A DNA stretch of 64,000 nucleotides from Desulfuromonadales bacterium (GTDB lineage: Bacteria; Desulfobacterota; Desulfuromonadia; Desulfuromonadales; JACZKF01), in the NCBI GenBank assembly GCA_029289095.1, contig JARFUG010000008.1, forward strand, positions 1 through 64,000, written 5' to 3'. The notes under the pieces are model-generated. The model did no database searches. It was not told where the DNA came from and saw only the letters and a list, made by a program, of their open reading frames with translations. Positions 1,155 through 32,372 of this stretch are shown here, piece after piece. The number at the start of each line of letters is the position of its first letter. Position 1 is the first letter of the stretch. Both the position numbers and the translations under genes were made by a program.

Positions 1155-1217
1155 TGCTAACAAGGCTATCGCAGCGGATCGCAAAAACCCCGTGCTCGCT
1201 GAAGAGCAGCGTTATGC
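1154..1217 (+). other. attC-like recombination site 1
   Basis: GTGCTAACaaggctatcgCAGCG...CGCTGaagagcagcGTTATGC: R'' and R' boxes with an imperfect palindrome between two ORFs. Confidence 0.6.
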
Positions 1218-1228
1218 AGGAGAAACCA

Positions 1229-2698
1229 ATGAAGTATCCAGTAGAGGAAGTATTCCGAACGGAAGGGGTCCCCGAGTTCACCTTCGTGAAACCACCAAAC
1301 TACAACGAGATACTCGTCGACATACGGAATCCAGGCAAGCCCACGATCATTGAGGGCCAATCAGGCACTGGCAAGACAACCGTCGCGAAGAAGATCATCG
1401 AGCACGCCTTCCCGCACGGAGACTTCGGATACCTCTCTGCACGCACGGCCAGCGATATGGCACGCATCCTATCGATTGCCGACGGAACGCTTCAAGGTAA
1501 GTGGATAATCGATGATTTCCATAGGTTGGATTCTTCCGTGCAGGCCCGCATTGCCGATCTGGTGAAGGTTGCTGCCGAGAACTTTGACGCCTCCTTACAC
1601 CCAAAGTTGGTCCTCATCGGAATAAACAAGGTAGGAAGTGAACTCATCCTTCTCGTTCATGACATTGCCAAACGATGCGGCATACACAGGATACAGCCTG
1701 CAGACAAGGAAATCGCCCTTCGGATGATCAGCCGAGGAGAGGAGAAGCTGAACGTCCTTTTGGACGACAAGGACGCCATTTTCAACGAGACCAAGGGGGA
1801 CTACTGGCTGACGCAGTTGACGTGTCAGGCGATCTGCCTTAGCCACGACATCCTCGAGACCCAGGACTCCCAAAGAACACTCGCGTACCGACAAGATGAT
1901 GTCCGAGCTCGCATCGTCGCGAGACTCGACAACACGTACAGAGAACCAGTCAAGGAGTTTGCCCGCGGCAAGCGCTTCCGGCCCACGAACGACCCCTACT
2001 TCCGACTGCTTCGTTTGGTAGCGGCGCAGGGAAGTTCGATCGCAGATCTCAACGAGCTGGCAAACGCTCACCCCGACGTACGGGGAAGCATCAACAACAT
2101 CAAGGAGCGACGCATCACTATCGTATTGGAGTCGAAGCCCATCTGTGATCGGTTCTTCTACTACAATGCTGACACGAAGACATTCGCTATTGAGGACCCC
2201 GCATTCTTTTACTACTTGCAGCACCTCGACTGGGAGAGTATGCGAAAGGACTGTGGGTTCAGGAGCGATCCGCACACCTTTGATTGGGATTTTGCGATCT
2301 CGTTCGCCGGCGAAAATAGAGACCTTGCAAAGACGATCGTGGATCTGCTCGAAATTTTAGACTGCACCATCTTCTACGATCAGTACTACGAGGCGAATTA
2401 TCTCGGCACCGCTTGGTCTCAGCAGTTTAAGGAGATCTTCGGAACTAAGGCAAGGTATATTGTCTGTCTGCTCGACTTCCATCACGCAGAGAAGATTTGG
2501 CCGACGTTCGAGAGGGAGTGTTTCACGCCCCGAGTAGAGGATTCCGCTGTGATTCCAATCTATCTGGACGACACTCCTTTTGTAGGTATTCCCAAGGATC
2601 TAATAGGAATTGACTTCAAGGGATGCGATCCGAGCAACACTGACCTTGTGACAGACAAAATCGTCTACAAGCTCGAAGAGAAACTCAGGAGTGTATAA
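1229..2698 (+). CDS. P-loop NTPase with C-terminal TIR domain, candidate defence protein
   Basis: Walker A GQSGTGKTT, Walker B-like WIIDDFH, TIR-like DFAISFAGENRDLAKTIVDLL...FYDQY...WPTFERE; AGGAG 6 nt before ATG 1229. Confidence 0.8.
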   Translation: MKYPVEEVFRTEGVPEFTFVKPPNYNEILVDIRNPGKPTIIEGQSGTGKTTVAKKIIEHAFPHGDFGYLSARTASDMARILSIADGTLQGKWIIDDFHRLDSSVQARIADLVKVAAENFDASLHPKLVLIGINKVGSELILLVHDIAKRCGIHRIQPADKEIALRMISRGEEKLNVLLDDKDAIFNETKGDYWLTQLTCQAICLSHDILETQDSQRTLAYRQDDVRARIVARLDNTYREPVKEFARGKRFRPTNDPYFRLLRLVAAQGSSIADLNELANAHPDVRGSINNIKERRITIVLESKPICDRFFYYNADTKTFAIEDPAFFYYLQHLDWESMRKDCGFRSDPHTFDWDFAISFAGENRDLAKTIVDLLEILDCTIFYDQYYEANYLGTAWSQQFKEIFGTKARYIVCLLDFHHAEKIWPTFERECFTPRVEDSAVIPIYLDDTPFVGIPKDLIGIDFKGCDPSNTDLVTDKIVYKLEEKLRSV

Positions 2699-2750
2699 CA
2701 AGCCGGATGCACGCGACGGCTTTTCAGCAGCGTGTTCCGCAACGTTATGC
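2693..2750 (+). other. attC-like recombination site 2
   Basis: GTATAACaagcCGGAtgCACGC...GCGTGtTCCGcaacGTTATGC: imperfect palindrome with unpaired bases, R'' overlapping the stop codon of the NTPase-TIR gene. Confidence 0.7.
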
Positions 2751-2766: not shown

Positions 2767-3867
2767 ATGGTCTCTGATGAATATGAATCGGGCGAGGAAC
2801 AGAAGTCCATAGACCTGAAAAAGCTTGCTCGAATCGAAAAGGAAAAGAAAGAGCTTCTTGCATCCCTCGCTGGTGGCAATTTCTCAACTCAAAAAGCGAA
2901 GGTCGCCGCGATTCTAAACCTTTTCCCGGATTCTCGTAACAGTGACATCAAATTGGCACTGAAGTATTGGGAGACATTTCAGCCCGACATCTACAATCCA
3001 TCGGGAATTCTTCCTAAAGACCTATTTAAGTTGGAGCGCCTTCACTACATCGTACGCGCACGGGCAAAAATACAAAACGAATACGGCCTATTTCAGGCTG
3101 ATGAGAAGATTAAACATCATCGGAAGAAACAAGAAGAAGTGATGCATGAATCGGTTCTCGAGGATGTCGCACCAAAAAGAGTAATTCATGTATTTGCCGA
3201 CGAGACAGGCAAAACTCACGATTTTGTGATTGTTGCCGCTGTTTGGGTACTTAGTGGTAGAGCAGTATTCAAGGTCACCCAGGCTATAAATGAATGGAAA
3301 GAGACTTCCGCATGGGCAGGTAGAGAGATCCATTTTGCAAAATTTGGAAAAATGGATTTCGATACGCTCAGGGACTATCTTGGCGTGATTCAACAGAATA
3401 GAGAGTTTCTTAGCTTTAAAGTAATCGCAGTGCAGAAATCAAGAACGAAACGAAAAATAGAAGAGGTTATAGAGAAGCTTCACGAGCATATGTTGGTCCG
3501 CGGTGCTGAACATGAAATTGAGCAGGGCAGAGTCGACTTGCCTAGGGAAATAGGAGTGACAATAGACGAGGAACAATCTCTTGACCCATTTATCCTTTCA
3601 GAAATGACGCGAAGAGTCGCTGCGGATTTCGCCCAGCATTATAAAGATCAATTACAAATTGAAAGTATACAAACTGTATCATCTAGGAGCAGCGCACTCG
3701 TTCAACTAGCAGATTTAGTTGCAGGTGCGGTGAATCGTCGTCTGAACCACGTCGGAGCCAAAAATTATAAAGACGAAATGGCTGACTGGATCGTGCACAC
3801 GCTTGACCTCGCTCTTGGGGAAGAAGGTGTGCCAGGACTTGATGTGTCAGCGCTTTTTCGAGTATAG
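2767..3867 (+). CDS. DUF3800 domain-containing protein
   Basis: IHVFADETGKTHDFVIVAAVWV and C-terminal VQLADLVAGAVNRR, typical of DUF3800. Confidence 0.75.
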   Translation: MVSDEYESGEEQKSIDLKKLARIEKEKKELLASLAGGNFSTQKAKVAAILNLFPDSRNSDIKLALKYWETFQPDIYNPSGILPKDLFKLERLHYIVRARAKIQNEYGLFQADEKIKHHRKKQEEVMHESVLEDVAPKRVIHVFADETGKTHDFVIVAAVWVLSGRAVFKVTQAINEWKETSAWAGREIHFAKFGKMDFDTLRDYLGVIQQNREFLSFKVIAVQKSRTKRKIEEVIEKLHEHMLVRGAEHEIEQGRVDLPREIGVTIDEEQSLDPFILSEMTRRVAADFAQHYKDQLQIESIQTVSSRSSALVQLADLVAGAVNRRLNHVGAKNYKDEMADWIVHTLDLALGEEGVPGLDVSALFRV

Positions 3868-3919: not shown

Positions 3920-4654
3920 ATGGGATTCACACCTCAAATTAAAGAGGATGCACTGGTCGCATCAGGGCGGCATTGCTGCATCTGCCACAGATTTTGCGGA
4001 ACGAAAATAGAAGTTCACCATATCGTGACGAAAAGAGATGGGGGTGAAGATTCTTTTGAAAATGCTATCCCTCTTTGTTTCGACTGCCACGCTGACATGC
4101 GTTCATATGATCACAGCCACCCGAAGGGCTGCAAATACACTATTAAAGAGCTAAAAAGGCACAGAGATAACTGGTACCAGAAGGTGGCCGGGAATGTGGG
4201 AACGGCTAACCGCGAAGAGGTTGTTGAGACGGATAAGAAGGTATATCGAACGTTACTGAAATTTTTGCCGTGGAATGGGACCATACAATTTCTGAGAGAC
4301 AACAATTTTGCTGGTGCCTCATTTGAAAGAAGCGAAACGAAGGATTTGTCAAAATATTGGGAGCAATGCCAAAACCCTCTATTTGAATTTATCGACCCTG
4401 ATTTAGAGGGGTTGCGCGCCGATTTGACTGAAAAAATCAGAGTAATGAAAAAGGCAATTGCCCTAGAAACATTTCCTGCCCATATAAACGGTTGCAATTC
4501 GGTGCCGGCTGAATGGGAGTTTGAGCAACCAGAGCGGTTCCGCCGTGCTGTCGAGGCCCTCCATAGAAGTGCAGATGATGTTTGTGAAGCTTATGACTCC
4601 TTGGTAAGGACGGCCACACGCAAGCTGGGTATTTTACCAGATGATATGGCATAA
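3920..4654 (+). CDS. HNH endonuclease
   Basis: CCICHRFCGTKIEVHHIVTKRDGGEDSFENAIPLCFDCHADM HNH/zinc motif. Confidence 0.85.
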   Translation: MGFTPQIKEDALVASGRHCCICHRFCGTKIEVHHIVTKRDGGEDSFENAIPLCFDCHADMRSYDHSHPKGCKYTIKELKRHRDNWYQKVAGNVGTANREEVVETDKKVYRTLLKFLPWNGTIQFLRDNNFAGASFERSETKDLSKYWEQCQNPLFEFIDPDLEGLRADLTEKIRVMKKAIALETFPAHINGCNSVPAEWEFEQPERFRRAVEALHRSADDVCEAYDSLVRTATRKLGILPDDMA

Positions 4655-4733
4655 CCCTAATAACCAAAAGGGGACGGATTTATTTTCCGGGCAAGGATAA
4701 GAACTGATCGGGTTAGCCCCCCCCGCCCCCCCC

Positions 4734-4825
4734 GGGTCGGACCAACTCAAGTGGCTAGAACTAAAAGGAAATGTCCTAAAATCACCCCTTGAGACAGGCT
4801 GTAGGCCGATTTTTGGGGGTAAAAT
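4734..4825 (-). repeat. ~92-bp short element copy C, inverted relative to A and B
   Basis: Reverse complement attttacccccaaaaatcgg...ttggtccgaccc; 17/19 match to copy A at the outer end, exact 12-mer at the inner end. Confidence 0.6.
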
Positions 4826-5615: not shown

Positions 5616-5725
5616 TTATTTCCCTCGCCGCTGAAGCGCCTCGAAGCTCAGGAGTGAAACCACGGCCAGACTGAAGGGGAGCAGAAAGAAGATCCCCCGG
5701 TAGACCAGCAGGGCGCCGAACAGGG
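5616..5725 (-). repeat. Exact 110-bp duplicate of the 3' end of the 7656-8585 gene
   Basis: ttatttccctcgccgctgaag...gcgccgaacaggg identical to 7656-7765. Confidence 0.95.
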
Positions 5726-7655: not shown

Positions 7656-8585
7656 TTATTTCCCTCGCCGCTGAAGCGCCTCGAAGCTCAGGAGTGAAAC
7701 CACGGCCAGACTGAAGGGGAGCAGAAAGAAGATCCCCCGGTAGACCAGCAGGGCGCCGAACAGGGCCGGCGCCGATAGTCCCGGGGTCAGCAGGAGAAAG
7801 ACGGATTCGAAGACGCCCAGGCCTCCCGGCACATGGCTGATGACGACGGCTATCTGCGCCAGGAAATAGATCTGCAGGAAGTGCGGAAGGGACAGGTCGA
7901 CCGTGGGGGGGAGCAGGACAAAGAGCACGCTGGCCGTGAGCATCCAGTCCAGTGAGCCGACCAGGACCTGCGCCAGTGCCTGGCGGAAAGTGGGTACGGG
8001 GAGCCGCCACCCCCACAGGCGCATGGGGTTGCGGCGCAGAAAGATCAGAAGAAGGTAGATTCCTACCGACACCAGTGCCAGAGCGCCGACCGGGCGCAGG
8101 AGGTGGAGGGGGAGTTGGGGCAGATCCGGCAGGGCAGCGGTGAAAAAGAGCAGAATGCTCCCACCCATGGTGGCCATGCCGAGGATGAAGGAGAGGGCGG
8201 CAAAAGCGATCAGCCGGACGATTTCCTCAGCCTTCAGTCCCCAGGAGGAATAAAACCGGTAGCGGACCGAGCCGCCGCTCAGCAGGGCAAAGCCGACATT
8301 GCGGCTGAAGGCGTAATTGGTAAAGGACGCCACAGTGATCCGCCCCAGGCGCAGGGGGCGACCAAGATAGCGCAGGCCGAGGTGATCGTGGAGGCTCAAG
8401 GCCAGGTAGCAGACGGCCGTCATCCCCACAGCCGCCAGGATCCGGGCCGTCGGAAATTCCCTTATCTGCTGAAGGATATCGCTGAACCGGTATTCCTCCA
8501 GCGTGCTGTGCAGCGACCACACGGCCAGGAGAAAGATCGCCAGGACCAGCAGGGGCGAGAATCGCTTCAGATCCTTGCGTTTCAT
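7656..8585 (-). CDS. Lysylphosphatidylglycerol synthase TM / UPF0104 (YbhN-like) family membrane protein
   Basis: Multi-TM; HVPGGLGVFESVFLLL and SLHDHLGLRYLGRPLRLGRI motifs. Confidence 0.8.
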   Translation of the reverse strand: MKRKDLKRFSPLLVLAIFLLAVWSLHSTLEEYRFSDILQQIREFPTARILAAVGMTAVCYLALSLHDHLGLRYLGRPLRLGRITVASFTNYAFSRNVGFALLSGGSVRYRFYSSWGLKAEEIVRLIAFAALSFILGMATMGGSILLFFTAALPDLPQLPLHLLRPVGALALVSVGIYLLLIFLRRNPMRLWGWRLPVPTFRQALAQVLVGSLDWMLTASVLFVLLPPTVDLSLPHFLQIYFLAQIAVVISHVPGGLGVFESVFLLLTPGLSAPALFGALLVYRGIFFLLPFSLAVVSLLSFEALQRRGK

Positions 8586-8670
8586 CCAGATTTGGACACC
8601 CTCCCGGTCGGTAGCTTCGCCGGGGCAAAGGGAGAGCATGGCGGCACCATCCCCCCAGTTTCCACGCCGA

Positions 8671-32117: not shown

Positions 32118-32372
32118 ACTGCAAAAGCGATGAAGAGGAGTAGTAGGGTCTCCTTCCTGTCCCAGAGAGCCGGCGGTCGCTGCAAGCCGGTACAGGAACG
32201 ATCCGAACTCGCCTCGGAGCTGTCCGGGTGAACGTCGTCTTCGGCGCTAGCCTGCACCGTGAGCCTGCGTAAAGGGAAAAACAAGGCCCGGCCATCCAAG
32301 GCGGGCGAATCAGGGTGGTACCGCGAAGCGCAAGCTCTCGCCCCTGTACGGGGCGGGGGTTTTTTTTTGCCG
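32118..32372 (+). ncRNA. T-box leader, leucine-type (specifier CTC at 32208-32210)
   Basis: AGAGAGCCGG-type stem I, gaaCTC specifier region, GTGAACG, conserved AGGGTGGTACCGCG (32312-32325), terminator cgcccctgtacggggcg-T9. Confidence 0.9.

Follow-up and report, generated by a model that had tools for sequence, protein, structure and literature searches.

A compact NTPase-TIR protein on a predicted integron cassette in Desulfuromonadales as a probable single-gene anti-phage effector

Overview

The gene at positions 1229–2698 of the window (the whole 64,000-nucleotide stretch of Desulfuromonadales DNA analyzed here) encodes an AAA+/STAND NTPase joined through a winged-helix module to a C-terminal TIR domain. 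Judging from sequence comparison and structure prediction, the protein is probably a stand-alone, abortive-infection type of anti-phage sensor-effector that degrades NAD+. The computational analysis established its domain order, its folds, the intact and conserved active sites, selection on the gene, its single-gene organization and its carriage by mobile elements. The features of the gene and its flanks are as follows.

1229–2698, forward strand: AAA+/STAND NTPase, winged helix and TIR protein, 489 aa (profile matches, AF2 model)
1229–1891, forward strand: P-loop NTPase core and lid, residues ~1–221 (AF2 model, VIA matches, RuvB hhalign, conservation)
1892–2263, forward strand: helical and winged-helix module, residues ~222–345 (secondary structure of the model; 2qen coverage of residues 7–332)
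2282–2692, forward strand: TIR domain, residues 352–488 (7uxu structural match, TIR_2)
2498–2512, forward strand: WPTFE, with W424 and the candidate catalytic E428 (codon 2510–2512) (alignment with AbTir W204xxxE208; 28/28 homologs)
1155–1217, forward strand: attC-like site on the 5' side, R'' GCTAAC and R' GTTATGC (pattern and homology edge; fold weak)
2693–2750, forward strand: attC-like site on the 3' side, the cassette's own attC, GTATAAC...GTTATGC (pattern, hairpin)
1211–2744, forward strand: predicted mobile cassette, G^TT to G^TT, +/- 1–2 bases (Saccharospirillum homology confined to 1209–2721)

Gene and Protein Architecture

The open reading frame begins at ATG 1229, closely preceded by a ribosome-binding-like AGGAG, and ends with TAA at 2696–2698. 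All motifs quoted in a preliminary description of this DNA are present in the 489-aa translation, namely GQSGTGKTT (residues 43–51), WIIDDFH (92–98), DFAISFAGENRDLA (354–367), FYDQYYEAN (from 382), and WPTFERE (424–430). The domain order proposed there, with an NTPase followed by a helical/winged-helix region and a C-terminal TIR, agrees with the AF2 model (mean pLDDT 85.9, pTM 0.70; built on an alignment of 23 homologs) and with its matches to 2qen and 7uxu. In this model, the middle region is predicted to consist of a helical lid and a winged helix. Both the Pfam search and the model place the TIR at the C-terminus and lack a repeat domain; no sensor domain such as TPR or LRR is visible in the 489 residues.

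Comparison with the homolog in Saccharospirillum gave a dN of 0.061 and a dS of 1.40 (dN/dS about 0.04), and the ratio is low in the NTPase and TIR parts alike. The protein is under purifying selection and has been kept rather than left to decay. The copy in a Desulfopila MAG (L004) has a frameshift.

TIR Domain and Candidate Active Site

The preliminary description had made the TIR fold a point to be checked by structure prediction, and the fold is present in the AF2 model, which places the domain in the TIR superfamily. Residues 352–487 match AbTir in complex with the NAD+ analogue 3AD (7uxu) with a Z score of 14.3 over 126 residues at 2.5 A (VIA-align). In the Pfam search, TIR_2 matches residues 355–465 of the window protein with 27.9 bits, slightly below the cut-off of 28, and matches all 23 aligned homologs (best E-value 6.9e-11). 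Because searches with the single sequence were weak (phmmer against PDB, best E-value 0.23), a family profile was used. This profile found bacterial TIR proteins as its top PDB matches, among them the NADase AbTir and the related TIR 7uxr, with E-values from 1.8e-8 to 1.3e-7.

In the profile alignment, W424-P-T-F-E428 aligns with W204-T-N-Y-E208 of AbTir, such that the glutamate of FERE that had been suggested as catalytic falls on the TIR active site; specifically, it is the first of the two glutamates. Mutations of AbTir at S140, D167, W204, E208, or R215 inhibit the NADase activity (PMC11374754). Counted along the printed alignment, these residues correspond to S358, D384, W424, E428, and R435 of the window protein, of which the first four are invariant in 28/28 homologs (identity down to ~27%) and R435 is kept in 27. 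The WxxxE glutamate and its companion residues are thus those of NADase-type TIR proteins. Based on the alignment to AbTir E208 and this conservation, E428 is the candidate catalytic glutamate, and the TIR domain is a probable NAD-destroying enzyme.

NTPase and Winged-Helix Module

Residues 7–332 match the archaeal STAND-like ATPases 2qen (Z score 15.6) and SSO1545 (2fna; 14.1), and also clamp-loader subunits (Z score ~14.5), in VIA-align comparisons. Clamp loaders also predominate among the matches in the Foldseek viral library. The NTPase part contains Walker A (43–51), Walker B (93–96), a sensor-1-like N133, and an arginine-finger-like R149. All 28 homologs share K49, D95, D96, H98, and R149, and 24 of them have N133. 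In an hhalign comparison with the RuvB of the host genome (E-value 7e-8), R149 aligns with the arginine of the 'RDRFG' box VII, which suggests that R149 may be a working arginine finger and, hence, that ATP hydrolysis may be oligomeric.

For the class assignment, the three hallmarks of AAA+ proteins (Walker A, Walker B, and a box-VII arginine finger) are all found, and the NTPase-helical-winged-helix arrangement of STAND proteins is likewise found in the matches to 2qen and 2fna over residues 7–332. At the level of Pfam families, nSTAND3 matches nine of the 23 members weakly and the ATPase_2 match is weak (14.3 bits versus a cut-off of 33.2). An intrinsic arginine finger is typically absent in STAND proteins, unlike in classic AAA+ proteins. 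Since R149 resembles such a finger, the NTPase looks like one on the border between AAA+ and STAND.

attC Sites and Integron Cassette

The gene had been described as bounded by attC-like sites, and two observations uphold this. The pattern TAACAAG-N25-55-CGTTATGC occurs at only two sites in the 3.5-Mb genome, 1158–1217 and 2696–2750, and the reversed control has none; this pattern was derived from the same two sites and is hence not independent support. DNA homology to the gammaproteobacterium Saccharospirillum impatiens is confined to 1209–2721, a 1.5-kb cassette with 81.5% identity. The homology begins at the core GTT of the 5' attC and ends within the distal attC, and the flanks are unrelated on both sides. 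This cassette boundary is the best independent support for the attC sites. An attC-like hairpin also follows the Saccharospirillum homolog.

The region 2693–2750 folds into an imperfect hairpin in which the core boxes pair, and the fold of the 5' site is weak. Folding energy was rejected as proof of attC identity, given z values of -0.64 and +0.31 (DNA parameters) and shuffle p values of 0.05–0.07. Taken with the homology that stops at them, the attC-type sites at both ends make the gene an integron cassette. A search for attC sites farther along the array, behind the genes for DUF3800 (3867) and HNH (4651), showed only the R''-like half clearly.

A complete integron, with intI and attI, was not found in the genome, in which TIGR02249 has no intI match above the cut-off and only Xer-like partial matches occur. 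The assembly has 154 contigs, and position 1 of the window is also the first base of its contig, so the array is cut by the contig end. This array probably represents a CALIN-type remnant, i.e., a cassette cluster lacking an integrase. Alternatively, the integrase may lie beyond the contig end at which the array begins. In both the host and Saccharospirillum, the ATG lies only ~11 nt from the 5' attC core, which indicates that the cassette carries a ribosome-binding site and no promoter of its own; a consensus scan found no promoter inside the cassette. The promoterless cassette may be silent in the host genome.

Distribution and Mobility of the Family

Homologs were found in Chlorobiaceae, Desulfopila, Rhodocyclaceae and other Betaproteobacteria, and Marinilabiliales. 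Within the phylum of the host, the gene is present in two of 297 genomes, the host genome included. Plasmid-borne homologs occur in Pantoea (51% identity) and in Azospirillum, Gloeothece, Curtobacterium, and Acetobacter (~31–33%). In the Pantoea plasmid, the gene lies with three more TIR-domain genes and a CBASS-annotated phospholipase gene (L008, 5995–13461), and this region is a TIR-rich defense island.

In IMG/VR, 17 contigs carry full-length or near-full-length homologs with 27–55% identity. These genes are located between a tail-completion gene (phrog_26) and baseplate genes, adjoining TerL, or directly before the tape measure gene. Because the terminase family PF03354 was found in only one of 16 IMG/VR records, the prophage nature of these contigs was judged from neighboring genes and from annotated Escherichia coli genomes. 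Among 5,426 complete E. coli genomes, the gene is present in two, each time within an annotated P2-type prophage, flanked by baseplate gene V and a gene for virion morphogenesis, and is annotated only as 'AAA family ATPase' (ortholog WP_047644722.1). Across P2-like prophages (L023, L024, L025, L029, and L042), the gene occupies differing nearby positions, between the S and V or the V and W homologs. These differing positions suggest repeated insertion at a cargo hotspot.

No partner gene recurs within 3.5 kb of the homologs; recurring neighbors are phage structural genes, one integrase pair, and a small number of isolated matches with two members each. A search of these neighbors for a conserved two-gene system found none, and the gene therefore works as a single gene, whatever its role. 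The suggestion that it can move alone is accordingly supported, with single-gene mobility by way of integron cassettes, plasmids, and prophages.

Relationship to Known Defense Systems

The family corresponds to phrog_6841, which is listed in PHROGs with 'unknown function' and matches 23/23 aligned members (best E-value 5e-144; window protein 4.2e-22). To this entry, the present analysis adds a probable TIR NADase assignment and the integron context. A PADLOC search had been proposed as a check. PDC-S59 matches the NTPase part in 22/23 members (best E-value 6.9e-21), in the window protein only partially (residues 91–253, 28.2 bits), and PDC-S66 matches the window TIR domain weakly; no curated defense model names the full protein. 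No NCBIfam model names the family, for which NCBI labels are limited to 'AAA family ATPase' or 'TIR domain-containing protein', and literature searches for the NTPase-TIR architecture or for PDC-S59 found no report.

A close comparison by architecture is the TIR-NLR of P4-like satellites, a single gene with an N-terminal TIR, a STAND domain, and C-terminal TPRs that was shown to defend (Rousset 2022, PMC9122126). Both combine a TIR effector with a STAND-like NTPase in a single gene on a phage-related element. However, the window protein has its TIR at the opposite end and lacks repeats within its 489 aa, and thus is not a TIR-NLR member. Judged by architecture, the gene is a reversed-order relative of TIR-NLR defense and involves no new principle. 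Thoeris was rejected, as the window has no ThsA-like neighbor and the homologs have no recurrent partner, and CBASS and Pycsar membership was ruled out by the absence of partner genes. The structures of AbTir (7uxu and 8g83) share the TIR fold and catalytic residues, whereas these solved TIR chains have no NTPase domain and are 18% identical in the structural alignment. Conversely, 2qen and SSO1545 (Pfam ATPase_2) share the NTPase-lid-winged-helix fold over residues 7–332 and are archaeal ATPases with no TIR.

Integrons are described as established reservoirs of defense genes in the searched text of PMC12409362. Like the defense cassettes of Vibrio and mobile integrons in that text, the gene studied here is a compact, attC-bounded, one-gene candidate. 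In contrast to those cassettes, the host genome has no detected integrase, and the NTPase-TIR family is not named in the text searched.

Proposed Mechanism and Alternative Explanations

In the resting state, the N-terminal AAA+/STAND ATPase and the winged-helix module would be held inactive. A phage-derived trigger, either a protein or a nucleic acid, would be sensed by this part, after which the ATPase would bind or exchange ATP and oligomerize through the R149 arginine-finger interface. Oligomerization would gather the C-terminal TIR domains into an assembly that cleaves NAD+ using E428, and the infected cell would halt growth or die ahead of phage release. We infer the trigger, the oligomerization, the NADase activity, and the protection from phages. 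Anti-phage use of the family is argued from its carriage by prophages. AAA+ proteins, for example clamp loaders, also have non-immune roles.

One alternative is that the TIR domain makes a signaling nucleotide, such as a ThsB-like cyclic ADP-ribose isomer, that activates a separately encoded effector and leaves the NAD+ pool unemptied. The same catalytic residues of TIR proteins serve NAD+ depletion and signaling-nucleotide synthesis, and two members of the family weakly match the PADLOC ThsB model. Nevertheless, the homologs have no recurrent ThsA-like or membrane effector next to them, the neighbors in the window match no such effector, and integrons and prophages carry the gene without a partner, which leaves this explanation unlikely. 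The occurrence on plasmids, integron cassettes, and prophages would also fit a toxin that stabilizes these elements or blocks rival plasmids, with phages not being the main target. This is distinctly unlikely given that no antitoxin gene recurs and that the cargo position in prophages is typical of lysogenic-conversion genes; moreover, an ATPase switch would better suit regulated activation than an addiction toxin.

Many TIR domains are scaffolds, and the clamp-loader/ORC-like fold has DNA-handling roles, such that the protein may instead be an AAA+ regulator with a catalytically inert TIR for protein interaction. The invariance of S358, D384, W424, and E428 across homologs as distant as ~27% identity and the profile matches to NADase TIRs make this very improbable. 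Finally, earlier work described TIR proteins encoded by integron cassettes and read them as host-immunity effectors; they were the main 'host immune regulation' class among plant-microbiome integron cassettes (PMC11089894). That the window protein is likewise a secreted effector disturbing eukaryotic host immunity is hardly credible, as no secretion context was seen, the TIR is fused to an ATPase switch, and the gene is carried within the tail operon of P2 prophages.

Neighboring Features in the Window

Upstream of the TIR gene, 696–1154 forms its own cassette and encodes a protein of 152 aa that has no clear family and is hydrophobic in stretches close to its two ends. Downstream, the next cassette gene (2767–3867) encodes a 366-aa DUF3800 protein that matches the PADLOC candidate PDC-M04A (2.9e-11); by this match, it is another defense-like gene in the cassette cluster. 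It is followed by an HNH endonuclease gene (3920–4654) with weak likeness to the HNH part of IscB and PtuB and with degenerate attC-like half sites on either side. The inverted repeat TTGGCTTGGTCCGACCCCGGG at 567–587 and 4730–4750 brackets the entire low-GC cassette cluster (GC 49% versus 61% elsewhere). An additional direct copy of the repeat is located at 283–299, and TTGGTCCGACCCC is also present on two other contigs. The cassette cluster may sit within a small mobile element.

Farther along the window, the end of a membrane-protein gene (7656–8639) is present as a ~100-bp direct duplication (~5625–5725 and 7660–7760), which looks as if a methyltransferase/DUF6976 block had been inserted with duplication. 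A T-box leader (RF00230, 112 bits) is located at 32121–32348, upstream of a 2-isopropylmalate synthase-like gene.

Implications for the Family

An NLR-like switch is plausible given that the TIR-NLR of P4 satellites defends (PMC9122126) and that integrons hold defense genes, as stated in the text searched of PMC12409362. A bolder reading, which we offer tentatively and consider possible rather than probable, is that the compact (~490–510 aa) family represents an 'inverted, repeat-free NLR' that circulates in several bacterial phyla among integrons, plasmids, and P2 prophages. An ORC/clamp-loader-like AAA+ module with a true arginine finger would then directly sense some feature of the phage, possibly a replication structure or a phage DNA-binding protein, and gate the C-terminal TIR NADase.

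If true, these findings would provide a function for phrog_6841, a phage protein family listed as unknown, and would extend the defense genes carried by integrons with an NLR-like NADase switch that is very small and consists of a single gene, with the same module serving prophages against competitors. Because the protein is small and lacks a repeat sensor, minimal NLR-like phage sensing would become directly testable.
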